The notes under the pieces: model-generated
The model's database searches: none
What the model saw: the letters and a program-made list of their open reading frames with translations, nothing else
Told to the model about the DNA's origin: nothing
Shown: positions 1,655 to 20,044 of the stretch, in pieces
Numbering within the stretch: position 1 is the first letter of the stretch
How the letters are laid out: each line of letters starts with the position of its first letter
Translations under genes and position numbers: made by a program
Source of the DNA: Clostridia bacterium
GTDB lineage: Bacteria > Bacillota > Clostridia > Oscillospirales > CAG-272
Direction: 5' to 3'
DNA: 34,281 bases
Assembly: GCA_017407225.1 (NCBI GenBank)
Contig: JAFQWY010000148.1
Span: 1-34,281 of the forward strand

Positions 1655-3028
1655 TTAACCAAACAGGGGCATCAGAAGCACGATGAAGATAATAACGGGA
1701 AGAACGTAGGACATATAGGGCTTGAGCCACTTGGGGAGCTTCAGACCGTTGCCGGTGTTGACTTCCGCGTAGAACTTGTCCCAGCCCCAGCCGTAGCGGG
1801 AGGTGCAGAACAGAACGTACAGAAGGCTGCCCACGGGGAGTGCAAGGTTGGAAACCAGCTTGTCTTCCAGATCCAGGAATCCCAGACCTGCGATGGTGAT
1901 ATCACCCCAGATGTTCAGGGAGAAGATTGCGGGCAGTGCCAGAACCATCATCAGACCCATGTTGATGAAGGAGATGGTACGGCGGCTCAGCTTGGTGTTT
2001 TCCATCCAGAAGGATACGATGTTTTCAAATACGGCGATAACGGTGGAGTATGCCGCGAAGATCATGAACAGGAAGAACAGGGCACCGATGATCCGACCGC
2101 CGGGCATGGAGTTGAAGATGCTGGAAAGGGTGGTCAGAAGGAAGGTTGCGCCGACGGATCCTGCGTCAGCGGTCTGGCCGCCGTTGTAGGTGAAGCAGGC
2201 GGGGAATACGATCAGACCTGCCATGAGCGCGATGGAGGTGTCGAGAGCGGTGATGGTAACAGCTTCGCCGAGGAGGGATCTGTCCTTGCCGATGTAGCTG
2301 CCGAAGATGGCGATGGAGCCGATGCCCAGAGAGAGGGTGAAGAAGGACTGACCCATGGCAGCGGAAATGGTGGTCCATACGCCGGCTTCCTTGAGCTTGT
2401 CAAGGCTGGGTACCAGATAAAACTTCAGACCTTCGCCGGCACCGTCCAGGGTGCAGCAGTATACAGCCAGAACGATCATGAGGACGAACAGGATGACCAT
2501 CATGACCTTTGTAACACGTTCCACGCCCTTCTGAAGACCGAAGGAGCATACCAGCAGGCAGAGCACGGTGGTAAATGCAACGGAGATCAGCTGCAGGGGG
2601 AGGTTGGATACGGTCGCACCGAACAGGCCGCCCAGTTCTTCCGCGGTCTTGTAGACAGAAATGGAGCCGGTGACATACTTGCAGAAGTAAATGAGCATCC
2701 AGCTTGCGATGGTGGTGTAGCACATCATCAGCAGGTAGTTGCCGCCGATGCCGAGGTACTTCATCCAGTGCCATTTCTGACCCTTCTTTTCCAGTACCTC
2801 AAAGGAGTTTGCGATGCTTCGCTGGGATCCGCGTCCCACTGCAAGTTCGCAGCACATAACGGGAAGACCCAGCAGAATGAGGAAGCCCAGGTAAATCAGC
2901 ACGAAGAACGCGCCGCCGTAGGCTCCGGTGATGATGGGGAAGCGGTATACATTCCCCAGACCGATGGCACACCCTGCGGAAATGAGGATGAACCCCAGTC
3001 TTGAACCGAATTTTTCTCTCTGATTCAT
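1655..3028 (-). CDS. Neurotransmitter:sodium symporter (SNF) family transporter
   Basis: Integral membrane protein (457 aa) of the LeuT/MhsT-type NSS family, which takes up amino acids or related amines using the sodium gradient. The first membrane segment carries the family signature: GSRLGFILISAGCAIGLGNVYRF, with the unwound-helix motif G-N-V-Y-R-F-P (Trp in LeuT is Tyr here), followed by ITGAYGGAFF and the LPVMCCELAVGRGSQRS stretch after TM2. About eleven hydrophobic segments follow, fitting bacterial members. The start at 3028 has AAAGGA 7 nt upstream. It is transcribed alone from a perfect sigma-A promoter and ends in its own terminator. The substrate cannot be deduced; the family suggests a hydrophobic or aromatic amino acid. 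Confidence 0.93.
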   Translation of the reverse strand: MNQREKFGSRLGFILISAGCAIGLGNVYRFPIITGAYGGAFFVLIYLGFLILLGLPVMCCELAVGRGSQRSIANSFEVLEKKGQKWHWMKYLGIGGNYLLMMCYTTIASWMLIYFCKYVTGSISVYKTAEELGGLFGATVSNLPLQLISVAFTTVLCLLVCSFGLQKGVERVTKVMMVILFVLMIVLAVYCCTLDGAGEGLKFYLVPSLDKLKEAGVWTTISAAMGQSFFTLSLGIGSIAIFGSYIGKDRSLLGEAVTITALDTSIALMAGLIVFPACFTYNGGQTADAGSVGATFLLTTLSSIFNSMPGGRIIGALFFLFMIFAAYSTVIAVFENIVSFWMENTKLSRRTISFINMGLMMVLALPAIFSLNIWGDITIAGLGFLDLEDKLVSNLALPVGSLLYVLFCTSRYGWGWDKFYAEVNTGNGLKLPKWLKPYMSYVLPVIIFIVLLMPLFG

Positions 3029-3182: not shown

Positions 3183-3211
3183 TTGATTTTTTGGGATTGA
3201 TATGCTATGAT
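3183..3211 (+). promoter_or_regulatory. Sigma-A promoter of the GH106-like/phosphoesterase operon
   Basis: TTGATT, 17 bp, TATGAT with TGC directly before the -10 (extended -10). It is divergent from the transporter promoter, with about 80 bp of AT-rich DNA between them. The -10 overlaps an in-frame upstream ATG at 3207, which argues that translation starts downstream at 3249. Confidence 0.7.
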
Positions 3212-3248: not shown

Positions 3249-6200
3249 ATGACGGATAAACTGAAAACACATCTTCTGAACCGGCTGAAAAAGCCCGAAA
3301 GCCACACCCGGCCGGTGCAGATCATCCACCACTATTTCCCGAAGAATGCGGCGGAAATCGATGCGTACCTTGACCGGGCAGAAGCGCTCGGCATGGGCGG
3401 ATTCTGCGTGAATATGGACGACCCGGAGAGGGGATATCTCGCAGATGACAGCGGCGTGTGGGAGGCCCTGGCACTGTTTATTGATAAAGCGTTTGAGCGC
3501 GGAATGCAGATCTGGATCTACGACGAACGTGCCTATCCCAGCGGTGCGGCAAATGATCTGGTGCTGAAGGAGATCCCGGACGGACAGGTGAAGGGACTGG
3601 TGTGCTGCAGCTGTGAGTCCGCGGGAGGATCCGGTGAGAGGGAGTGCAATGCGGTCTATGCGGCGGCGTATCCCTGTGAAAACGGAATTCTGCTGAAATC
3701 GAAGGCGGTTGAACTGCCCTGCGAAAGCGGTGTGATCCGGTGGGATCTTCCTGCCGGGGACTGGCGGATTCTGGCGTTTGAAACCCGTCCCGTCAATTTC
3801 CTGACGGAGAATAAAGTACCCTATGTGGATCTGATGCGGGCGGATGTGGTCGGCAAGTTTATCGAAGTCACCCACGAGCGGTACCGGAAGCATCTGGGGG
3901 ATGACAGAATCCGGAAAATCACCGCGTTTTTCACCGATGAGCCGGGACTCCCGGTACACGGATGCTCCTCCTATTTCCATGAAACCGATGCGGTCTGCGC
4001 ATGGACGGAGGAAATGAATCTTCTTCTGCCGGGATTTGAGAAGAATTACGTTGATCTGTTCTATGACACTGACGGGGACTGCAGGAAATCCCGGCGGATG
4101 TGGTGGAAAACGGCGGCGCGGCTGTTCGGCGAAAACTATTTCGGTCAGATCGCCGGATGGTGTCAGAAATGGGGCACCCGGATGACAGGGCATCTCTACG
4201 GCGAGGAAACCCTATCCATGCAGATCGGACTGAACGCGGATCTGTTCGGGCTGATGCGGTATATGCAGATGCCCGGCGTGGACCGCCTGTACTGCGACGA
4301 TCCCCGGGATGTGACGGCGGAGAAGACGGCATCCTCTGCGGCTCATCTCTACGGACGGACCATGGTCATGAGCGAGAACAGCTTCCATCTGGAGCATAAC
4401 TGGTGGAAGACGCCGGAGAAGGCGACACACGAAAACCGCCTCAACTCCGCGTACTATCAGGCACAGCTGGGCGTGACCCATCCTGCGTCCTATTTCGGGT
4501 ATCCCGATGAAAACCGTGCCGACTACGAGCTGAAAGCGGCGCGGGCGGGACTGTTCACGTCCTACGGTACCCACAAAACCGATGTGCTGGTGCTCATTCC
4601 CATGACGGCGGCATACGAGCGGTTTGCGGTGCCCGATCATAAATACTGGAATGTAGGCCCCTGCACCGTGGCACCTCATCAGGGAAAGAGCATCCGGAAA
4701 CTGGAAGAAGCTTACGGACAGGTTCTGGAGATTCTGGAAGACCGGCATTTTGACTTTGACCTGATTGATGAAGAGGATCTGTGGAACTGCGGCGGATCAG
4801 CCGGGATTATCAGCACGGGATACGAGGAGTTCACCGCACTGGTGGCGTTTGACAGCGGAGAGTTCACCGAAGAAGCGCGTCTGGCGATGGATATATTCCT
4901 GCGCGGCGGCGGGCACATTACCTTCGTAAATACCGATCAGCCCACGGAGTTTGCGGCATTTCTCGCGGAAAAGTACCCGGGATACGTTTGTTTCACTGAT
5001 GCCGCGGACGCTGCGGAACATATCAGTGCATCTCCGGTTCTGCGGATCAGCGGAGAAACCGATGGCGTTCGGGTAAAGAAAACGGTGACGGCGGGAGCAG
5101 AGCTGTACTTCATCCACAACCGCAGGGACAGTGCACGGAAGTTGACGGTATCTCTCTCCGGCAGTCTGACTCTCTGCACCATGGACATGGACGTGACGGA
5201 TTTTAAATCCGACGGGGAATTTGATCTTACCGTTCCGCCGAAGGATGCCCTGATGCTCATGCGCTGGCTGGCGGAAGATCCCATGCCGGAGATGGAGATG
5301 CACGGGGAATTCCGGATTCTGCAGCTGACGGACACACAGGTGACCGATCTTTTTCAGGCGAGAAACAGCATCCGGTTCGATCAGCTGAAAGGGGCATTTT
5401 TCAAGGAAGGCATCCACGACAATTTCGTGCGCACTTACGATTCCGTTCACCGGATGGTAAAGGCGGCAAATCCCCACCTGATCGTGATTACGGGGGACCT
5501 GATTTACGGCGAGACCGACGACAGCGGCGATCTGTGGCTGCAGTTCACTGATGTGATGGATTCACTGGATGTGCCGTGGGCATTTGTCTGGGGAAATCAC
5601 GACAACGAAAGCGCACGGGGCGTGTCGTGGCAGATCGAGCGGCTGAGCCGGTGCAGAAACTGCATCTTTCGCCGGGGAAGCGTGACCGGAAACTCCAACT
5701 ACGCCATCCGCCTGACGGAAAACGGGGAAGAGCGGGCTATGCTGGTGTTCCTCGACACAAACGGATGCCGCGTGGTGGGCGACTGGTGGGCACCGGAGGA
5801 AGGAATGTCCGAGCCGAATCCGGATGAAGGGCTGCTGGAACACCGGGAATCCATCGCCGACGACCAGTGCGCGTGGTACCGGGATCTGATGGCGGGCAGG
5901 GACATTCCGTCCTATGCGTTCTTCCATGTGCCTCCCCATCAGGTGGACGAGGTTTACGACCGATACGGCAGTGAGCGGAAGCCCTTTGTGTGCGATCAGC
6001 CGGGGGACTTCGGGGAAATCAACGACATCGGCGGCGATCATGCGTGTCTGCATCCGGACTTCTGGGATACGGCAAAAGCGGCAAACTGCCGGGGCATTTT
6101 TGTGGGACATGATCACAAAAACAACGGCAGCTTCATGTATGACGGAATCCGGATCACCTTCGGGCTGAAAACCGGAAGCCATGTCAGCCACAAATCCGAT

Positions 6201-6281
6201 CTGCTGGGAGGTACCCTGATCCGACTGAAGGAAGACGGATTTACCGCAGAGCACATTTATGACTACGCACCGGGGAAATGA
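3249..6281 (+). CDS. GH106-like glycosidase fused to a C-terminal calcineurin-like phosphoesterase
   Basis: A 1010-aa protein with two apparently unrelated catalytic parts. Residues about 1-670 resemble the TIM-barrel core of GH106-type alpha-L-rhamnosidases: HHYFPKNAAEIDAYL near the start, IYDERAYPSG (D92, E93), VIRWDLPAGDWRIL, FTDEPG (D230, E231), and a later beta-rich section. Residues about 684-1010 form a metallophosphoesterase: LTDTQ, VITGDLIYG, GNHDNE (782-787), FFHVPPHQ and GHDHKN (953-958). The first metal motif reads D-T-Q rather than the usual D-x-H. The start at 3249 has GGAGG 8 nt upstream; an ATG 42 nt earlier lies in the promoter. No signal peptide is seen, so it is probably cytosolic. 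It heads an operon with an SGNH hydrolase, an APH-like kinase and a GH78 enzyme. The family assignment of the first half is moderate; that of the second half is firm. The substrate is unknown. Confidence 0.85.
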   Translation: MTDKLKTHLLNRLKKPESHTRPVQIIHHYFPKNAAEIDAYLDRAEALGMGGFCVNMDDPERGYLADDSGVWEALALFIDKAFERGMQIWIYDERAYPSGAANDLVLKEIPDGQVKGLVCCSCESAGGSGERECNAVYAAAYPCENGILLKSKAVELPCESGVIRWDLPAGDWRILAFETRPVNFLTENKVPYVDLMRADVVGKFIEVTHERYRKHLGDDRIRKITAFFTDEPGLPVHGCSSYFHETDAVCAWTEEMNLLLPGFEKNYVDLFYDTDGDCRKSRRMWWKTAARLFGENYFGQIAGWCQKWGTRMTGHLYGEETLSMQIGLNADLFGLMRYMQMPGVDRLYCDDPRDVTAEKTASSAAHLYGRTMVMSENSFHLEHNWWKTPEKATHENRLNSAYYQAQLGVTHPASYFGYPDENRADYELKAARAGLFTSYGTHKTDVLVLIPMTAAYERFAVPDHKYWNVGPCTVAPHQGKSIRKLEEAYGQVLEILEDRHFDFDLIDEEDLWNCGGSAGIISTGYEEFTALVAFDSGEFTEEARLAMDIFLRGGGHITFVNTDQPTEFAAFLAEKYPGYVCFTDAADAAEHISASPVLRISGETDGVRVKKTVTAGAELYFIHNRRDSARKLTVSLSGSLTLCTMDMDVTDFKSDGEFDLTVPPKDALMLMRWLAEDPMPEMEMHGEFRILQLTDTQVTDLFQARNSIRFDQLKGAFFKEGIHDNFVRTYDSVHRMVKAANPHLIVITGDLIYGETDDSGDLWLQFTDVMDSLDVPWAFVWGNHDNESARGVSWQIERLSRCRNCIFRRGSVTGNSNYAIRLTENGEERAMLVFLDTNGCRVVGDWWAPEEGMSEPNPDEGLLEHRESIADDQCAWYRDLMAGRDIPSYAFFHVPPHQVDEVYDRYGSERKPFVCDQPGDFGEINDIGGDHACLHPDFWDTAKAANCRGIFVGHDHKNNGSFMYDGIRITFGLKTGSHVSHKSDLLGGTLIRLKEDGFTAEHIYDYAPGK

Positions 6282-6327
6282 TCCCGGTCTGATATACCGA
6301 AATGTTTATTAGTAAAGGAGAAAAATC

Positions 6328-6978
6328 ATGAAAGTATTGTTCATCGGCAACAGCTTCACTTTTGTAAACGACCTTCCCGCTATGCTGGAAACCCTGTCCG
6401 GGGGAGAGATCACCTACGGCAAGGTGCTCCGCGGCGGTGCTTATCTGAAATGGTACGCGGATCCGGAACATGAGCTGGGTATGCAGGTACGGGAAAAGGC
6501 AAAGGAATCGTGGGATGCCGTAATTCTGCAGGATCAGAGCTTCAACCCGGCACGGGACAAGGACGACTGCGTGAATCAGACGAAGGTTCTGGCAGCCCTG
6601 TTCCCGGAAACTCCCGTGTTCATGTATCAGACCTGGGCATACCGGGACGGTTCCGACAAGCTGAAGAACACCGGACTGACCTACGATGAAATGAAGGAAA
6701 AGCTGTATGATGCCTACAACGCGGCGGCTGAGGCCGTGAACGGCAGAAGGGTTCCCGTAGGCTTCGGATTCGCGGAAGTGAAGCGGACTGCACCTGAGAT
6801 TGACCTGTATACCGAGGATTCCTATCATCCCTCACCGGCAGGAACCTATCTGGCGGCGTGCCTGTTCTATATGGCGCTGACCGGCAAGGACTGCGATGCT
6901 CTGCCCGGGATCGATGCGCTGGATGACGGCACCGTGAAGATTCTCAAGACTGCGGCAAAGGCGGTGTCAGGTACATGA
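6328..6978 (+). CDS. SGNH/GDSL-fold hydrolase, probable carbohydrate esterase
   Basis: A 216-aa single-domain protein. The nucleophile block is FIGNSFT (S9), in the GNS form typical of one SGNH subgroup, and the catalytic Asp/His pair is in DSYHPSPAGTYL (D164, H167). ILQDQS (near residue 70) occupies the position of a middle conserved block. Such enzymes commonly remove acetyl or other acyl groups from sugars; the glycosidase neighbours on both sides make that the likely job here. The start has AAAGGAG 9 nt upstream. It lies 46 nt after the fusion glycosidase with no terminator between, and its stop overlaps the next ATG by 4 nt, so it is the second gene of the operon. No signal peptide is visible. 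Confidence 0.85.
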   Translation: MKVLFIGNSFTFVNDLPAMLETLSGGEITYGKVLRGGAYLKWYADPEHELGMQVREKAKESWDAVILQDQSFNPARDKDDCVNQTKVLAALFPETPVFMYQTWAYRDGSDKLKNTGLTYDEMKEKLYDAYNAAAEAVNGRRVPVGFGFAEVKRTAPEIDLYTEDSYHPSPAGTYLAACLFYMALTGKDCDALPGIDALDDGTVKILKTAAKAVSGT

Positions 6979-7757
6979 CGGATCTGAAGCTGCCGGAAAA
7001 AATCAGGGCATATCTGGGAGAGCGCGGATTTGAAACGGATGAAGTGGGACGATCCGCGTCGACGGTGCTGATGTTCGACGACTGCGTGCTGAAAATCAGC
7101 GGAACCGCACCGGATTCCGTCAACGAATGGCGTGTGATGGAGTACCTTGCCGGAAAGCTTCCCGTGCCGGAGGTGCTGTGCCGGGAATCCGCGGACGGAC
7201 GGGAATATGTGATCATGTCCCGGCTGGACGGTGAGATGTCCTGTGCGGAGCGGTATCTGGACGATGTTCCTACGCTGGTGAAAGGTCTGGTGGAAGGGCT
7301 GAAGATGCTGTGGAGTGTGCCGCTTCCCGAAGGACTGACGGATTTCTCCCTTGAAAACGAACTGGATGACGCGGAAAAACGCCTTGATTCCATTGACTGG
7401 ACGGAAAAGCCGGACGAGCTGAAAGCGGAATTCCCTGCGGCAGGGGATCTGCTCCACTGGCTGAGAGCCAACAAGCCTGAGGAAGACCGGGTGCTGAGTC
7501 ACGGAGACTACTGTCTGCCCAATCTGTTTCTGGAGAACGGCAGAGTCAGCGGATTTCTGGATCTGGGACACTGCGGCATCGCGGACAGATACCGGGATAT
7601 CTCCCTCGGTCTGAAAAGCCTGAAAAATAACCTCGGCGGCGTATTCGGCGGACCTGTGAGAGAGGGATACGATCCGGCACTTCTCTTTGACACGCTGGGC
7701 ATGACGCCGGATGACGAAAAACTGCGGTATTATCTGCTCCTCGATGAGCTGTGGTGA
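6975..7757 (+). CDS. APH(3')-like phosphotransferase (aminoglycoside kinase family)
   Basis: A 260-aa kinase of the aminoglycoside 3'-phosphotransferase type, about the usual family length (roughly 260-265 aa). The catalytic loop is LSHGDYCLPN (H176, D178, N183), the metal-binding segment GFLDLGHCGIADRYRDI (D196), and the C-terminus KLRYYLLLDELW closely matches the end of APH(3')-III-type enzymes as I recall it. The nucleotide-binding strands STVLMFDDCVLKIS and a likely catalytic-lobe Lys are present. The family transfers phosphate from ATP to an aminoglycoside hydroxyl, so the protein could confer kanamycin/neomycin-type resistance; but it is the third gene of a glycosidase operon (4-nt overlap upstream, 11 nt gap downstream), so a sugar or glycoside substrate is also plausible. 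Which of the two applies cannot be decided from sequence. Confidence 0.88.
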   Translation: MTDLKLPEKIRAYLGERGFETDEVGRSASTVLMFDDCVLKISGTAPDSVNEWRVMEYLAGKLPVPEVLCRESADGREYVIMSRLDGEMSCAERYLDDVPTLVKGLVEGLKMLWSVPLPEGLTDFSLENELDDAEKRLDSIDWTEKPDELKAEFPAAGDLLHWLRANKPEEDRVLSHGDYCLPNLFLENGRVSGFLDLGHCGIADRYRDISLGLKSLKNNLGGVFGGPVREGYDPALLFDTLGMTPDDEKLRYYLLLDELW

Positions 7758-7768
7758 AAGGAGAAACC

Positions 7769-9769
7769 ATGAAAGCAATCCCCATCTGCCACCCGGATTT
7801 TGCGGAGCTGGAACCGCTGAACGTGTGGCATAAGGAACACGCGCCTTATGAAAAGCCCCATCATCCGGAGCATCTGAAGAACCGGCATACCCTGTTCCGG
7901 AAGAAATTCATACTGCCGGAATTCGATCCCGAAAAGAACCGCGCCCTGCTTCGGATCACGGCGGATGATTACTATAAACTGCGGATCAACGGAGCGTTTG
8001 TGACACAGGGGCCGGCTCCTGCCTATCCGTCCGCGTACTATTACAACGAGATTGACGTGACGGAATTCCTTCTTGCCGGTGAGAACGTCATTGCCGTCCA
8101 TCAGTATTATCAGGGACTGGTGAACCGTGTGTGGGTGTCCGCGGATCTCAGATCCATGCTCTGCTGTGAGCTGGAGCTGGACGGGAAAATGGTGCTGACC
8201 ACGGACGAAACATGGAAATGCACCACCCATACCGGGTATACTCCTCTGGGGCTGATCGGCTACGAAACCCAGTACTGTGAGCAGTATGACAGCCGGGCAC
8301 CGGAGTGCGGTTTCCACTGTCCGGATTACGACGATTCCGCATGGGGATATGCCGCCGTGAAGAAGCACGCGGACTACGGATTCGTGAAGCAGCCCACGAA
8401 GCAGCTGGTGTTTGAGGGACTCTGTCCCGCAAAGCGTGAGAATCTGCCCGGATGTGTCCGCGTGGATTTCGGTCAGGAGATTGTGGGAACTCTCGCGATC
8501 ACCGGCATCGGGCGGAACGGTGACTGCGTGACCGTGCGGTACGGGGAAGAGCTGAATCCCGAAGGATCGGTGCGGTACGAGATGCGGTGTAACTGCCGGT
8601 ACGAGGACAAATGGATTCTCTCGGGCAGCCCGGACGAGTTTATTCCCTATGACTACAAGGCGTTCCGGTATGCGGAGATTCTGTATCCGGAAACGGCGGA
8701 GATCCGGCTGATTCAGGCATCGGTGCGTCATTATCCCTACGAAAAACGGGCATCCTACACGGACGTCCCCGATGAAATGGGAGAAATCCTCACCCTGTGC
8801 GAAAATACCATCAAATACGGGATGCAGGAATGCTTCGTGGACTGTCCCACCCGGGAAAAAGGGCAGTATTCCGGAGATGTTTCTATCAGCGGACGATCTC
8901 ACGCCATTCTCACCGGTGACACATCCATGATGAAGAAGGCGATCCGGGAGTTCTGCCATTCCGCGTTCATCTGCGAAGGCTTGATGGCGGTGTCAAACGG
9001 TTCCCTGATGCAGGAAATCGCCGACTACTCCCTCCAGATGCCGGCTCAGGCGTGCTTCGTGTACGCGCTGGATCATGACATGGATTTTATCCGGGAAATC
9101 GAGCCTGTCATGACCGGAGTGTACCGGTATTTCCGGAAATATATGCGGGAAGACGGTCTCATCGGCGGCGTGAAGGACAAATGGAATCTGGTGGACTGGC
9201 CTGCCAATCTGCGGGACGGCTACGATTTTCCCCTGCCCAAGCCCATCGGCGACGGGGTACACAACGTGCTCAATGCCTTCTGGTGCGGATTCCTCGATTC
9301 CATGGACGAGCTGTACACAGTTCTGGGAATGCCCGTCACGGGCGAATCGGAGCGGGTGAAGGCGGCGTTCGGAAAAGAGTTTTACAATCCCGAAACCGGA
9401 CTGTACTGCGACAGCGGCACTCTCACCCATTCGGCGGCCCATTCCGTCATCCTGCCCCTGCTGTTTGACATCGGCACGGAAGATGAAAAACGGACGGAGC
9501 GGATGATTTCCTTTATTACGGAAAAGCGGCTGACCTCCGTGGGCGTGTATATGGCGTATTTTGCTCTGGCGGCACTGGTGAAGCACGGACGGCGTGATCT
9601 TGCCGTTGAGCTGGCACTGGACGAGGGCTGCTGGAAGAATATGCTGAAGGAAGGTGCCACCACTGCCTACGAAGCATGGGGGAAGGATCAGAAGTGGAAT
9701 ACCAGTCTGTTCCATCCGTGGGCAACCGCTCCCCTGATCGTTTTTGCGGACGGTGTGCGGGTATATTGA
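7769..9769 (+). CDS. GH78 family alpha-L-rhamnosidase-like enzyme
   Basis: A 666-aa enzyme expected to release terminal L-rhamnose from glycosides or pectic oligosaccharides. The N-terminal beta-domain (about 1-190) carries ADDYYKLRINGAFVTQGP, typical of GH78 proteins; a further beta region contains VRVDFGQEIVGTL. The catalytic barrel shows VDCPTREKGQYSGD, where D358, E363 (general acid position) and D370 fit the D-x4-E-x6-D spacing of characterised GH78 enzymes, with Tyr where they usually have Trp. Near the end, ATTAYEAWG supplies the second catalytic Glu (E635). It lacks some accessory domains of the 900-1000-aa members. The ATG at 7769 follows AAAGGAG; a GTG 18 nt earlier is less likely. 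No signal peptide. It is the last gene of its operon, followed by a terminator. Confidence 0.9.
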   Translation: MKAIPICHPDFAELEPLNVWHKEHAPYEKPHHPEHLKNRHTLFRKKFILPEFDPEKNRALLRITADDYYKLRINGAFVTQGPAPAYPSAYYYNEIDVTEFLLAGENVIAVHQYYQGLVNRVWVSADLRSMLCCELELDGKMVLTTDETWKCTTHTGYTPLGLIGYETQYCEQYDSRAPECGFHCPDYDDSAWGYAAVKKHADYGFVKQPTKQLVFEGLCPAKRENLPGCVRVDFGQEIVGTLAITGIGRNGDCVTVRYGEELNPEGSVRYEMRCNCRYEDKWILSGSPDEFIPYDYKAFRYAEILYPETAEIRLIQASVRHYPYEKRASYTDVPDEMGEILTLCENTIKYGMQECFVDCPTREKGQYSGDVSISGRSHAILTGDTSMMKKAIREFCHSAFICEGLMAVSNGSLMQEIADYSLQMPAQACFVYALDHDMDFIREIEPVMTGVYRYFRKYMREDGLIGGVKDKWNLVDWPANLRDGYDFPLPKPIGDGVHNVLNAFWCGFLDSMDELYTVLGMPVTGESERVKAAFGKEFYNPETGLYCDSGTLTHSAAHSVILPLLFDIGTEDEKRTERMISFITEKRLTSVGVYMAYFALAALVKHGRRDLAVELALDEGCWKNMLKEGATTAYEAWGKDQKWNTSLFHPWATAPLIVFADGVRVY

Positions 9770-14039: not shown

Positions 14040-15023
14040 TTATTCCATCTCCCCGGAGGGCGGCACCATATCGCGTTCATACCCCGCAGGCTCGCCGAAA
14101 ACGGGGAATCCGGTGTCATCAAAGTCGATCTTCTGCAGGTTCAGGTACCGTGTCCGGCTTTTGGAAACCGGGCTCGGCTCCATCATGCCGTGATAGGCGC
14201 ACCATGTTTCCTCTCCGTCGGGAGACTTGAAGAAGGAGGCGTGACCGGGACCGTATACGCCGTTTGCCTGCGTGAAGACGGGCTTGTCGTGCTTGACCCA
14301 GTATTTCGCACTGCACAGCTGGGTGCTGTCGGTTTTGTCCCCGGTGAACTCCAGCAGACCCATGCAGTAGTCATCGATGGTGCAGCCGTTTGCGGAATAG
14401 ATCAGGAACAGGCGACCGCTATTCTCCACAAAGAACGGGCCTTCGTTGATGAGATGCCGGGTGTCGTAGGGCGGAATCCGCTCCCACGGGTACTCCGCAC
14501 GCCCGATATCCGCCCACTGGTCACTGGGCTTTTCCGGGGAAATCATCCGCCGGATCTGCAGAACATTGCGGGGATGCCCGTGTTCGTCATGCTCAATGCG
14601 GCAGAAGCTCAGGTACTGGATCCCGTTCGGCGCAATCCACGAGGTGGCGTCAATTGCCCACAGCTCCGGGAAAGGTTTGCCCAGATACTCCCATTCGCCG
14701 AAGGGATCATCGGACAGGGCTCCCATGACGAAAATCCGCTTGGGACCGTGCTCTTCCGTTTCCTGACCGCTGGTGTAGACGTACCATCTGCCGCCCGCTT
14801 TGTGCATTTCCGGCGCCCAGATGCACTTGAGAATCCCGTGGTCGGGTGCGCGGAAGATCACTTTGGAGTCGTTGTCGGAAAGAATCGTGCCTGCATGACG
14901 GCTCCGGAAAATCTCCAGCCGGTTTCCGCAGGTGAAAAGGGAATAGTAATACCCGGTGACGGGATCGTATGTCACGAACGGATCCGGCGCGTCACGCAGG
15001 GCAAGGGGATTACGGAATTTCAT
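14040..15023 (-). CDS. GH43 family glycoside hydrolase (second of a tandem pair)
   Basis: A 327-aa five-bladed beta-propeller glycosidase of the arabinofuranosidase/xylosidase family. The catalytic triad can be read directly: general base in DAPDPF (D14), pKa-tuning Asp in WAIDATSW (D125), general acid in INEGPFF (E194). The conserved blocks IWAPEMHKAGGRWYVY and YGPGHASFF are also present. No signal peptide, so it probably acts on imported oligosaccharides. The ATG lies 3 nt after the stop of the first GH43 gene and its GGGAG ribosome site is inside that gene, so the two are translationally coupled. Members cleave alpha-L-arabinofuranosides or beta-xylosides; the subfamily cannot be settled by eye. 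Confidence 0.92.
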   Translation of the reverse strand: MKFRNPLALRDAPDPFVTYDPVTGYYYSLFTCGNRLEIFRSRHAGTILSDNDSKVIFRAPDHGILKCIWAPEMHKAGGRWYVYTSGQETEEHGPKRIFVMGALSDDPFGEWEYLGKPFPELWAIDATSWIAPNGIQYLSFCRIEHDEHGHPRNVLQIRRMISPEKPSDQWADIGRAEYPWERIPPYDTRHLINEGPFFVENSGRLFLIYSANGCTIDDYCMGLLEFTGDKTDSTQLCSAKYWVKHDKPVFTQANGVYGPGHASFFKSPDGEETWCAYHGMMEPSPVSKSRTRYLNLQKIDFDDTGFPVFGEPAGYERDMVPPSGEME

Positions 15024-15026
15024 GGC

Positions 15027-16010
15027 TTACTCCCAGATTTCCCCGGACGGAGGAACCAGATCGGTTTCGTATCCCACAGGTTCGCCCATGACGGGATAGC
15101 CGGTTTCATCAAAGTTCACCTTCTGGATGTTGAAGAAGCGGGGCGCATAGACTACCTTTTCGTTGTGCTCCTTCATGCCGTGATACGCGCACCACAGCTC
15201 GGTTCCGTCGGGAGAGTGGAAGAAGGACGCGTGGCCGGGGCCGTAAACCTCGTTCGCCATCTCAAAAATGGGCTTGTCGTGCTTGATCCAGTTGGCAGGG
15301 TCGCACATCTTGTCGGGGTCGCCTCTGTCATCGCCGATGTATTCCAGTACGCCGAAGCAGTAGTGGTCGGACCAGCATCCGTTGCCGGAGTAGATGATGT
15401 ACAGTCTGTCGTGTTCTTCCACGAAGAATGCGCCTTCGTTGATGGTGCGGGGACCGTCATAGGGAGGAACCATTTCCCAGTCGTATTTTGCACGGGCGAT
15501 CATGGCCTTCTTTTCGCTGAAGGTCCAGGGATTTTCCAGTGCGCAGATGTCCAGAACCTGACCGTTGTCCACGCGGGAGTAGCAGATGAACTGCTGACCG
15601 TTCTTTGCGGTGTAGATGGTGGGGTCGATGGAGAACACGTCGGGGGTGGGCTTGCACTTGAACTGCCATTCGCCGAAGGGATCGTCCGTGAGTGCTTCCA
15701 TGATGAACAGACGCTTTGCACTGGGCTTTTCTTCCATGCGTCCGCTGGTGTAGATGTACCACTTGCCGTTGGAACCGCGGTGCATTTCGGGAGCCCAGAT
15801 GTCGCCCCAGATGCCGTCGCGTTCTCCGTCCGGGGTGTAGATCACCTTGGAATCTCCGTCGGTGACGATGTTTGCGGCATGGCGGCTGCGGAACAGTTCC
15901 AGAACACGTCCGCGAGTGAACAGGGCGTAGTAGTAGCCGGTGACGGGATCGTACCCCATGTACGGGTCGGGTGCATCATAGGGGGATACGGGATTGCGGA
16001 AGGTCTTCAT
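15027..16010 (-). CDS. GH43 family glycoside hydrolase (first of a tandem pair)
   Basis: A 327-aa GH43 enzyme clearly homologous to its downstream neighbour: shared blocks include APDP, DPVTGYYY, ELFRSRHA/EIFRSRHA, IWAPEMH, DDPFGEW, YGPGHASFF, WCAYHGM and LVPPSGE/MVPPSGE. Catalytic residues are D15 (DAPDPY), D129 (FSIDPTIY) and E192 (INEGAFF). Compared with the neighbour, the segment around residues 140-180 has diverged most, which may reflect a different substrate. The ATG at 16010 is chosen with GAGGA 8 nt upstream; an in-frame TTG 6 nt earlier is less likely. No signal peptide. It has its own strong promoter. Confidence 0.92.
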   Translation of the reverse strand: MKTFRNPVSPYDAPDPYMGYDPVTGYYYALFTRGRVLELFRSRHAANIVTDGDSKVIYTPDGERDGIWGDIWAPEMHRGSNGKWYIYTSGRMEEKPSAKRLFIMEALTDDPFGEWQFKCKPTPDVFSIDPTIYTAKNGQQFICYSRVDNGQVLDICALENPWTFSEKKAMIARAKYDWEMVPPYDGPRTINEGAFFVEEHDRLYIIYSGNGCWSDHYCFGVLEYIGDDRGDPDKMCDPANWIKHDKPIFEMANEVYGPGHASFFHSPDGTELWCAYHGMKEHNEKVVYAPRFFNIQKVNFDETGYPVMGEPVGYETDLVPPSGEIWE

Positions 16011-16072
16011 AATCAAATCCTCGCTTTCGGAATTTCACCGGGATATCACGTTCATTCCGGTGATTTTTCTTC

Positions 16073-16165: not shown

Positions 16166-18583
16166 TTATCCGGCGGAAACGGAGTTTTCCATCTCCTCCG
16201 CCCATCTCACAGTTTCCATGGCATCCTTCGCGTACTTGTCGGCACCCATGCGTTCCGCGGTATCGGCAGTCAGAACGGCTCCTCCTACCACGATTTTACA
16301 CCACGGTGCACGCTTTCTCAGCAGCTTCACTGTCTCCTCCATGGCGGGAACGGTAGTGGTCATCAGGGCACTCAGTCCAACGAAGGGCGCATGAATCCGT
16401 ACCGCTTCGTCGGCGATCACTTCCGGCGGCACATCCCGTCCCAGATCGGTAACGGCAAATCCGTAGTTTTCCAGAATCAGCTTTACGATGTTCTTGCCGA
16501 TGTCGTGAATGTCCCCCTTGACGGTGGCAATCACAAAGGCGGAACGGATGGCGGAGGATGCGGTCAGCTTTTCCTTGATTTTCTCAAAAGCGGATTTTGC
16601 GGCCTCTGCACTCATCAGCAGCTGGGGGAGGTAAACGGTCTTTGCTTCAAATCCACGTCCCACATTGTCAAGTGCGGGGATGATCTCGTTCTGCACCACG
16701 GAAAGGGGGGCGGCAGATACCAGCAGATCTTCCGTGAGCGATGCGGCACGCTCCTTCAGCCCCTTCTCGATGGCCTTCTGCAGCTCGGATCGGGTCTCTT
16801 CCGGCTTGATCTCCGGTTTTGCGGGATTCACCGCCGCAGTCTGAGCCGGTACAAAAGCGGAGGCAAAGGCAATGTAATCTCCGCAGTTTTCATCCAGGGC
16901 ATGGAGGGCGCGGTAGCTGTGGTATGTCTTCAGCATGTCGGCGGAATAGGGATTGAGAATCGCCGCAGACAGCCCGCGCTCCAGTGCCATGGCAAAGAAC
17001 GTGGAGTTGATCAGATCCCGCTGGGGCAGACCGAAGGAGATATTGGACACGCCAAGGGAGGTATGGCATCCCAGACGGTGACGGATTTCATCCAGGGTAT
17101 CTACCGTCGTCATCGCGGACTTCGGGGATGCACTGATGGTCATGGCGAGGGTGTCGAAGATGATGTCGTCTTTGGAAATGCCGTATTTTCCGGCTTCCGC
17201 GAGGATTTTTTCAGCAATTGCCACCCGTCCTTCCGCGGTTTCGGGGATTCCGTCCTCGTCCAGGGTCAGGGCAATAGCGCATCCGCCGTATTTTTTCATC
17301 AGCGGGAAGATGGCATCCATACTTTCCTGCTTGCCGCTGACGGAATTGATCAGTGCCTTGCCGTTGTACCGTCGGAGAGCGGATTCCATGGCGGCGGGAT
17401 CGGAGGTATCAATCTGCAGGGGAAGATCGGTGACCGCCTGCAGTTCGGTGACGGCTTCCGTGAGCATGGAAACCTCGTCAATCTCCGGCAGTCCCACGTT
17501 TACGTCAAGAATGTGCACACCCTTTTCCGCCTGCATCAGACCTTCATTCAGGATATAGCCGATATCGTGCTCCGCAAGAGCCTGCTTGAACCGCTTCTTG
17601 CCCGTGGGGTTGATCCGCTCGCCGATGAGGACGGGATTTTCCCCGAATTCAACGACATGGGTGTAGGAAGACACCACGGTTCGATGCTTTTCCGTCACGG
17701 GAACGGGGGCCAAAGAGCGGATTTTCTCCGTCAGTGCGCGGATATAGTCGGGGGTAGTGCCGCAGCATCCGCCGATGACACGTACACCGCTTCTCACCAT
17801 GGCGTACACATCTTCGGCAAATTCTTCGGGTGTTACATCGTATACGGTATCGCCGCAGTCCGCGCAGACATGGGGCAGTCCGGCGTTGGGCTGAACCATC
17901 ACGGGAACGGAGGAATACTTCAGATATTCATCCGCAATGGGAGAGAGCTGCTTCGGACCCAGGGAGCAGTTGACTCCGATTACATCCGCGCCCATGGATT
18001 CCAGAAGCGCGGTCATGGCAGCGGGATCCGCTCCGGTCATGAGCTTGCCGTCCTCGGAGTAGGCATTGGTGACGAACACGGGCAGGGTGCTGTTTTCCTT
18101 TGCGGCAAGAAGGGCTGCTTTGGTCTCATAGCTGTCGTTCATGGTTTCGATGAGAATCAGATCCGCACCGTATTTCACGCCCAGCTTCACGGTTTCGGCA
18201 AATACCGCCGCGGCATCCTCGAAATCAAGGTCGCCGAGAGGCTTGAGCATCCGTCCGGTGGGACCGATGTCCAGTGCCACGAACTTGGGCTGTGCGGTTT
18301 CGGACAGGACAATGGCAGATCTCGCGTTCTCTACGGCACAGCGGACGATTTCATCCAGCTCGTCTGCGGAAAACTTCAGGCAGTTTGCGCCGAAGGTATT
18401 GGTGGTGGCGACATTTGCCCCTGCCGCGAAATAGTCCGTGTGGATTTTCCGCAGAACCTCCGGGTGAGCGGCATTCCATCTCTCCGGCAGTTCTCCGGGC
18501 GTCAGTCCTTCCTTTTGAAGAAGCGTACCCATACCGCCGTCGAAGACGAGAAAGTGATTTTTGATATATTCAAGTACATTCAT
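16166..18583 (-). CDS. metH: Cobalamin-dependent methionine synthase core (homocysteine, folate and B12 domains)
   Basis: An 805-aa enzyme that moves the methyl group of 5-methyltetrahydrofolate to homocysteine through cobalamin. Residues about 1-290 are the homocysteine domain with zinc ligands C206 (GVNCSLGP) and C273/C274 (GGCCGTTPDY). Residues about 315-580 are the pterin-binding barrel (LIGERINPTGKKRF, ILDVNVGLPEID, LINSVSGK). Residues about 595-800 are the B12 cap and Rossmann domain with DIHDIGKNIV, where H693 is the cobalt ligand, and VVGGAVLTADTAERMGAD. E. coli MetH is about 1227 aa; the missing part is the SAM-binding reactivation domain, which is encoded separately just upstream. 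Third gene of the metF operon; AAGGA precedes the ATG by 10 nt. Confidence 0.96.
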   Translation of the reverse strand: MNVLEYIKNHFLVFDGGMGTLLQKEGLTPGELPERWNAAHPEVLRKIHTDYFAAGANVATTNTFGANCLKFSADELDEIVRCAVENARSAIVLSETAQPKFVALDIGPTGRMLKPLGDLDFEDAAAVFAETVKLGVKYGADLILIETMNDSYETKAALLAAKENSTLPVFVTNAYSEDGKLMTGADPAAMTALLESMGADVIGVNCSLGPKQLSPIADEYLKYSSVPVMVQPNAGLPHVCADCGDTVYDVTPEEFAEDVYAMVRSGVRVIGGCCGTTPDYIRALTEKIRSLAPVPVTEKHRTVVSSYTHVVEFGENPVLIGERINPTGKKRFKQALAEHDIGYILNEGLMQAEKGVHILDVNVGLPEIDEVSMLTEAVTELQAVTDLPLQIDTSDPAAMESALRRYNGKALINSVSGKQESMDAIFPLMKKYGGCAIALTLDEDGIPETAEGRVAIAEKILAEAGKYGISKDDIIFDTLAMTISASPKSAMTTVDTLDEIRHRLGCHTSLGVSNISFGLPQRDLINSTFFAMALERGLSAAILNPYSADMLKTYHSYRALHALDENCGDYIAFASAFVPAQTAAVNPAKPEIKPEETRSELQKAIEKGLKERAASLTEDLLVSAAPLSVVQNEIIPALDNVGRGFEAKTVYLPQLLMSAEAAKSAFEKIKEKLTASSAIRSAFVIATVKGDIHDIGKNIVKLILENYGFAVTDLGRDVPPEVIADEAVRIHAPFVGLSALMTTTVPAMEETVKLLRKRAPWCKIVVGGAVLTADTAERMGADKYAKDAMETVRWAEEMENSVSAG

Positions 18584-18596
18584 GATTCGATGTTCC

Positions 18597-19172
18597 TTAT
18601 GCTTTGATTCCCATGATCGCTGTGACGGATTTGGACGGCGTCATGAGCAGACTTTCGTTCAGGGTCAGCCCGATTTTCCGGGGGCAGTCCAGGACGGAGA
18701 GGATCTCCCTCTGCAGATCCAGCGGCAGATCGCCGTAGCCTGGGCTGAACCGGGGGCGGGTATTCTCAAATTCCCCGCAGAACAGGTCACACAGGGCTTC
18801 GATCCGCTCGTTTCCGACGGATTCCAGAAACAGCGCCTTTACCGGGGAGATTCTGCTGTATTTCTGTGCCAGTCTGTCGGGGGCAATCCCCACGGTGGCG
18901 GCAAAGAGGACGATCCGGTTGCAGCCCCGCAGATTCTTCGCCAGATCCGATGAGTTCACCCGAGCAAAAATCAGATCAAGGGCTTCGCTGTCACGGATTA
19001 CAGGATACTCCGCCCACACCGTACGGTAGGTCAGGGACGGCAGAAGCTCGGCGAGACACTGATCCAGCAGGGCGTTTTCCGTCTCTGACGGGTTGCCGGC
19101 ACGGGCGTATCGGAAGACTTCACGACGGTTCACCGGCGGCAGATCGGCTGAGGTATAAAGCTGTACGTTCAT
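18597..19172 (-). CDS. Methionine synthase activation-domain protein (stand-alone)
   Basis: A 191-aa protein matching the SAM-binding reactivation domain of MetH. The key motif is RFSPGYGDLPL (R141, G145, Y146), the R-x3-G-Y signature of that domain. In full-length MetH this domain allows reductive methylation of cob(II)alamin that has been oxidised by accident; here it must work in trans on the shorter MetH encoded immediately downstream (13 nt gap). Its ATG overlaps the metF stop by 4 nt. About 190 residues is shorter than the roughly 330-residue C-terminal domain of E. coli MetH, so part of that fold is lost or reduced. Split arrangements of this type are known in Thermotoga and some Clostridia. 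Confidence 0.85.
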   Translation of the reverse strand: MNVQLYTSADLPPVNRREVFRYARAGNPSETENALLDQCLAELLPSLTYRTVWAEYPVIRDSEALDLIFARVNSSDLAKNLRGCNRIVLFAATVGIAPDRLAQKYSRISPVKALFLESVGNERIEALCDLFCGEFENTRPRFSPGYGDLPLDLQREILSVLDCPRKIGLTLNESLLMTPSKSVTAIMGIKA

Positions 19173-20044
19173 CTGATGATTTCCGACAAATTGGACTGGA
19201 TTTTTTCAGCCACATCGGGCTTGTTCATGGAGTAAACATGGACGTTTTTGATGCCGTTTGCGTACAGGTCGATGATCTGGTCAAGGGCATAGACGATACC
19301 GGCCTGCTTCATGGCATCGGGGCTGGAGCCGTATTTGTCCACAAGGGATTTGAACCGCTGGGGCATGAAGGAGCCGGACAGCTTGACGGCACGTTCCACC
19401 TGCTTGGCGTTGGTGATGGGCATGATGCCGGGGATAATGGGGACAGTGATGCCGGCCTCCCGGATTTTATACAGGAAATTATACAGCAGATTGTTGTCGA
19501 AGAACATCTGCGTGGTCAGGAATTCGCATCCCGCATCCACTTTTTCTTTCAGATAGAGGATATCTTCCTTCTGGTTCGCGCTTTCCGGGTGAATTTCCGG
19601 ATAGCAGGCACCGCCGATGCAGAAATCCGCACCGGATTCTTTCAGCTCATGAACCAGATCCACGGCGTGGCGGTAGGTCCACTTACTGCGGTCGGCGTTT
19701 TCCATTTCGGGAGTCAGATCGCCGCGGAGTGCCATCACATTCTCGATTCCGGCGTTTTTCATGTCCTCGATTCTGGCGTGAACGGTCTCACGGGTGGAGG
19801 AAACGCAGGTCAGATGGGCAAGGGTGGGGACGCCGTAGGTCTGCTTGATGTTTTTTGCAATCTCAAGGGTATACCGGCTGGTTCCGCCGCCCGCACCGTA
19901 GGTCACGCTGACAAAGGACGGATTCAGCTGAGCGATTTCCTCGGTTGCTTCCCTGACGGAAGAGAAGGCGGTGTCGGTTTTCGGAGGGAATACCTCAAAG
20001 GAGAGGGAGCATTTGTCCTGCTTCAGAAGTTCAGAAAGTTTCAT
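19169..20044 (-). CDS. metF: Methylenetetrahydrofolate reductase
   Basis: A 291-aa flavoenzyme (TIM barrel) that reduces 5,10-methylene- to 5-methyltetrahydrofolate, the methyl donor used by the downstream methionine synthase. Signature stretches are SFEVFPPK, SVTYGAGGGTSRYT, VMALRGDLTP, FCIGGACYPEIHPE, TTQMFFDN and PGIMPITNAKQ. Length matches bacterial MetF (about 290-300 aa). It begins the operon; its stop overlaps the next ATG by 4 nt. The ribosome site is weak (CGGATG about 8 nt upstream), and the predicted leader is only about 27 nt, too short for a riboswitch. Confidence 0.96.
   Translation of the reverse strand: MKLSELLKQDKCSLSFEVFPPKTDTAFSSVREATEEIAQLNPSFVSVTYGAGGGTSRYTLEIAKNIKQTYGVPTLAHLTCVSSTRETVHARIEDMKNAGIENVMALRGDLTPEMENADRSKWTYRHAVDLVHELKESGADFCIGGACYPEIHPESANQKEDILYLKEKVDAGCEFLTTQMFFDNNLLYNFLYKIREAGITVPIIPGIMPITNAKQVERAVKLSGSFMPQRFKSLVDKYGSSPDAMKQAGIVYALDQIIDLYANGIKNVHVYSMNKPDVAEKIQSNLSEIIR

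Follow-up and report, generated by a model that had tools for sequence, protein, structure and literature searches.

Why should a single bacterial gene encode a glycosidase and a phosphoesterase in one chain, and do the two active sites serve the same molecule? The gene in question occupies positions 3249-6281 on the + strand of the window (the whole stretch of 34,281 nucleotides that was analysed) and runs as a single stop-free frame whose translation is 1010 amino acids long. An in-frame ATG at 3207 would lengthen the open frame upstream; the start was set at 3249 because the N-termini of relatives fall within a few residues of this position and an AGGAGG lies 8 nt upstream of it. The first-pass annotation had described a glycosidase followed by a phosphoesterase, and this layout and its boundary hold: residues 1-676 (3249-5276) form a half related to GH106 glycosidases of the Ram106B type, residues 677-686 (5277-5306) form the joint, which contains three in-frame ATGs (Met679, Met682 and Met684), and residues from approximately 686 to 1010 (5307-6278) form a calcineurin-like phosphoesterase half. 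Both halves align nearly full-length with stand-alone proteins from other genomes; the 1010-residue frame is therefore not a chance one, and a chance frame or a mis-called start was ruled out on this ground. The fusion protein is probably cytoplasmic, since no hydrophobic leader is visible by eye.

The domain search bore out only one half of the proposed pairing above threshold. Pfam Metallophos (PF00149) matched residues 688-957 with 38.1 bits (cut-off 21.5), whereas Glyco_hydro_106 (PF17132) scored 19.9 bits with the whole protein and 22.0 bits with residues 1-676 alone, both below its curated cut-off of 29 bits. When the organism's own genome was searched with PF17132, four other places were listed and the fusion gene was not among them, while five of six close sequences matched the model at E <= 0.1, the best of them at E 4.8e-9. 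Homology nonetheless backs the rhamnosidase-type reading of this half. Built from the six closest sequences, profile A2 gave no match among solved GH106 chains; the wider profile A3, with 27 rows, was required to reach PDB 6q2f, which we take to be RHA-P (E 1e-28), and BT0986 (5mqm, E 5e-21; also solved as 5mqn and 5mwk). In addition, tblastn aligned residues 6-557 of the window protein with a Monoglobus protein (E 6e-21) that is itself a clear GH106 match, with 71.4 bits for PF17132. This homology supports the first half as a putative complete glycosidase domain, related to GH106 and of the Ram106B type.

The active-site residues point in the same direction. None of the eight glycosidase columns checked varies across the 27 rows of A3; among them are E376, which falls on the general base E593 of BT0986 in the profile alignment, and H315, which falls on BT0986 E538 by count along the aligned rows. 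D230-E231 and D345 are also present in all 27 rows, and they probably correspond to the Ram106B sites, a wording chosen because D230-E231 is paired with Ram106B by motif only and D345 lies one column off BT0986 E561 in the HMM alignment; the A3 alignment to BT0986 begins after the general acid E461. The metal-site residues of the window protein differ from those of BT0986 and 6q2f and appear to follow the pattern described for Ram106B from Thermotoga, Caldicellulosiruptor and Thermoclostridium. According to the available portion of that description (PMC6828813), Ram106B differs from BT0986 in having Asp-Glu for Asp-Ser and in replacing E538 with His and E561 with Asp; it keeps the general base Glu (E376 here) and does not match the general acid E461. 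The same portion presents these rhamnosidases as metal-ion dependent and mentions no phosphoesterase domain; the window half additionally differs in lying below the Pfam GH106 cut-off.

The first half is most likely an alpha-L-rhamnosidase. It is rather unlikely, in our estimate, that it is a GH106-fold glycosidase with a specificity for some other sugar. Such a specificity would fit the sub-threshold Pfam score, the distinct clade in which the half is placed (see below) and the lack of a match between solved GH106 chains and the profile built from close orthologs alone. However, Ram106B, whose active-site pattern appears to be the same, cleaved no tested pNP substrate other than the alpha-L-rhamnoside, as far as the available text reports (PMC6828813), and the cluster of the fusion gene includes a GH78-type gene.

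The second half is a complete predicted calcineurin-like phosphoesterase. The motifs reported in the first-pass annotation are present (GDLIYG at residue 749, GNHD at 782 and GHDH at 953), as are all eight metal-binding residues checked (D695-x-Q697, D750, N783-H784, H893 and H954-x-H956), which we take to be the complete metal-binding motif set of calcineurin-like phosphoesterases. In a 21-row alignment of this half (A4), D695, Q697, D750, N783, H893, H954 and H956 are invariant wherever the residue is present, and H784 is kept in 20 rows. Coverage is low at the first motif because many rows entered as trimmed matches, with 12 rows reaching D695 and 14 reaching Q697, all 14 of which share the Gln. 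The nearest solved structures are distant, being purple acid phosphatases or phosphodiesterase-like entries (1ute, 2dxl and Rv0805, 2hyp) that matched weakly by profile (E 3.6e-5 to 8.8e-4). The first motif in most of these enzymes is D-x-H, in contrast to the D-x-Q of the window protein. Closer relatives are encoded by separate genes, in G837 (L136, 47% identity), G023 (L046, 45%) and G022 (41%). L136 and L046 share the motif set of the window protein (by eye in the case of L136), and by eye a lipoprotein-type leader is present in L046 and absent from L136.

Members of the phosphoesterase family also occur in larger proteins. The multidomain proteins L203-L206 belong to the same phosphoesterase family as the window half, which they differ from in that their remaining part gave no GH106 profile match. 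The frames of L195, L201 and L202 are very long (2415, 2207 and 2219 aa, respectively) and carry a phosphoesterase domain of the window family, L196 (2198-4669) and L197 (3595-6375) are single frames with two such domains each, and the long phosphoesterase frame L102 carries SLH domains. On contig 49 of G009, four matches to the family fall within 4.9 kb on one strand (3792-8656, part of which is covered by L035), possibly as a tandem array. The notion that long phosphoesterase frames are hidden GH106 fusions was ruled out for those fetched, none of which matched the GH106 profile.

Both halves were found as stand-alone genes in other genomes, the glycosidase at 57-63% identity and the phosphoesterase at up to 47%. 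The glycosidase ortholog occurs in four other genomes of the genus (G001, G013, G015 and G022, among 25 genus genomes including the organism's own), and G014 holds an ortholog fragment at a contig end. The three orthologs with a complete end stop where the joint begins in the window protein, at residues 672-676 in its numbering, while the copies in G015 and G014 are cut. Stand-alone proteins that align end to end with residues 1-676 are about 700-730 aa long, and a quick tree placed the window glycosidase in a five-row clade (SH-aLRT 100) whose other four rows lie in unfused frames of 717-732 aa.

Occurrence of the same fusion elsewhere, which the first-pass annotation had proposed to look for, was not seen: no second fusion appeared among the matches listed in 98 relatives (own genome included), nor in 25 genus, 295 family, 394 order (phosphoesterase half), 291 class and 398 phylum genomes, sets that overlap and each include the own genome, with part of the matches fetched and, except in the 25 genus genomes, the best 2 to 8 candidates per genome scored. 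An order-wide search with profile A1 reported the glycosidase part alone even for the window and was therefore blind to fusions. Both profiles were also run over the frames of 115 sequences, of 31 loci and of further sets of 26, 13 and 5, and they coincided only in the frame of the window and in copies of it that were fetched again (L001, L055 and L085). A profile search of public genome contigs yielded three loci, none of them fused, and the GH106/metallophosphoesterase pairing was not found in the open-licence papers searched. A mobile origin of the fusion was rejected: no relative turned up when viral contigs were searched with the glycosidase profile, and each of the 10 matching plasmid records aligned with a single half, over no more than 55% of the query and at less than 60% identity. 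The observation is confirmed as real, and the gene appears to be an isolated case in which two complete enzymes, each of a known kind, are fused end to end.

The genome that carries the fusion is a draft assembly (375 contigs, contamination 5.7%), and it could be argued that adjacent or unrelated genes are joined in this draft only, through a mistake in assembly or consensus calling or as the variant of a minor strain. The many contigs, the lack of the fusion in any other genome searched and the short imperfect repeats (16-19 nt) that touch the joint region would be in keeping with such an error, but we regard it as very unlikely. The join is in frame at both domain ends, with a linker of approximately ten residues leading to the first phosphoesterase strand near residue 688; the joint DNA is single-copy in its own genome, and no tandem repeat was found at the joint. 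Moreover, composition does not change abruptly there: GC3 is 0.68 in the glycosidase half and 0.72 in the phosphoesterase half, and the codon-usage score, which is 0.09-0.10 at residues 501-650 and 0.29 at residues 801-900, shows no step at the joint.

It is also possible, though less likely, that the fusion is real and its two activities are unrelated, a chance stop loss or small deletion having joined neighbouring genes to give a product that is tolerated, with a start at Met684 perhaps also yielding the phosphoesterase alone. Met684 is the last of the three ATGs at the joint and has a GGAG 6 nt upstream, an arrangement that resembles a former gene start and would make it a possible relic or working internal start. 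This start is only suggestive, however, because similar Shine-Dalgarno-like (SD-like) sites precede 18 of 242 internal ATGs in the 20 window genes, compared to 9 of the 20 taken gene starts. An accidental joining would be consistent with a fusion that is a singleton and with a pairing that is not clearly enriched elsewhere (see below); it accords less well with the intactness of both active sites and with the place of the gene at the head of a co-directional cluster that includes a GH78 gene.

Three further genes make up this cluster on the + strand. A DUF4886-like gene (6328-6978) begins 46 bp downstream of the fusion gene and is followed by an APH-family phosphotransferase gene (6975-7757), which overlaps both of its neighbours, and by the GH78-type gene with Bac_rhamnosid domains (7751-9769), perhaps the last of the operon. 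The 46 bp gap and the overlapping co-directional genes after it suggest a four-gene operon in which the fusion, DUF4886-like, APH-like and GH78 genes would be co-transcribed. A promoter-like site precedes the fusion gene on the + strand (3183-3211, 9/12). Terminator-like sites on this strand in the cluster stretch are two in number and weak (at 6079 and 8663), and sites on both strands amount to 7 versus 6.0 expected. On the other hand, a single transcript is somewhat disfavoured by promoter-like sites inside the cluster on the + strand, at 6800-6828 (10/12) and 8213-8242 (9/12). The APH-family gene scored 196.8 bits with the NCBI APH(3') model, compared to a cut-off of 205, and may encode a sugar or small-molecule kinase and not a resistance determinant.

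Upstream, a gene for an SNF-family sodium symporter (1655-3028, - strand) is divergent from the fusion gene. G001 and G014 show the same divergent arrangement, with a relative of this symporter (72%) and the glycosidase gene. The symporter was not seen beside the glycosidase gene of G013 or G022, and in G015 the gene lies on a short contig. Elsewhere in the window, on the - strand, positions 16166-20044 encode in a row a methionine synthase-like protein (a homocysteine methyltransferase carrying domains that bind pterin and B12), an activation domain in a short gene of its own and MTHFR, and positions 14040-16016 hold two adjoining GH43 genes.

The first-pass annotation had also proposed a search for the two halves as neighbouring genes in other genomes. 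GH106 genes are present in the fetched flanks of related phosphoesterases at 3 of 39 loci, 2 of 26 (L174 and L175, from one genus) and 1 of 13 (L205, read wider as L208), but GH106-like genes abound in these genomes, so that a rough estimate puts this frequency near chance and not clearly above GH106 abundance. The closest arrangement is that at 7830-13212 of L208 (G1255), where only 25 bp separate the end of a GH106 gene from the predicted start of a 1000-aa phosphoesterase gene of the window family with a leader visible by eye; the surrounding genes include those for a sugar ABC transporter, GH39 and GH3. Alkaline phosphatase and GH3 genes lie near the phosphoesterase in L204/L209, and an alkaline phosphatase gene does so in L203/L210; no GH106, GH3 or alkaline phosphatase neighbours were seen in L206/L211. 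The phosphoesterase gene of L135 adjoins a type I phosphodiesterase-family gene, near carbohydrate ABC-transporter genes, and in L047 a type I phosphodiesterase-family gene is about 1.5 kb away. Among the neighbours of three phosphoesterase genes, 2 of 10 look sugar-related, compared to 0 of 10 for three glycosidase orthologs, where 5 neighbours were without a Pfam match.

The explanation that we favour, with a probability of roughly 0.5, is that two stand-alone genes, one for a Ram106B-type GH106 glycosidase and one for a calcineurin-like phosphoesterase, were recently joined end to end and in frame in this lineage. The product, encoded at the head of the four-gene cluster, would be cytoplasmic and carry a complete active site on either side of the short linker, and both sites are proposed to process one imported oligosaccharide. 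In this scheme the C-terminal site would remove a phosphate or split a phosphodiester, and the N-terminal site would remove a terminal deoxysugar. That both sites act on a single phosphorylated oligosaccharide bearing rhamnose is a plausible proposal, which draws on the pairing itself, the GH78 gene and a few neighbourhoods. The first-pass annotation had suggested a phosphorylated or phosphodiester-linked rhamnose-rich glycan; that the single chain strips both phosphate and rhamnose intracellularly from one such substrate, in the form of phosphate-decorated rhamnans or phosphodiester-linked rhamnosides, is improbable on present evidence, and we know of no such coupled enzyme for either. Counted against the favoured explanation as a whole are the single draft genome, the 3/39 pairing, the small number of sugar-related neighbours, the drift in codon usage, the imperfect repeats, the promoter-like site at 6800-6828 and the PF17132 search that missed the gene.

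What the fusion means depends on whether its two sites share a molecule. If they do, the fusion would suggest that these bacteria feed on a phosphorylated rhamnose-containing glycan, and the protein would be a ready reagent for finding that glycan. If they do not, the locus would stand as a documented recent end-to-end gene fusion between two widespread enzyme families.
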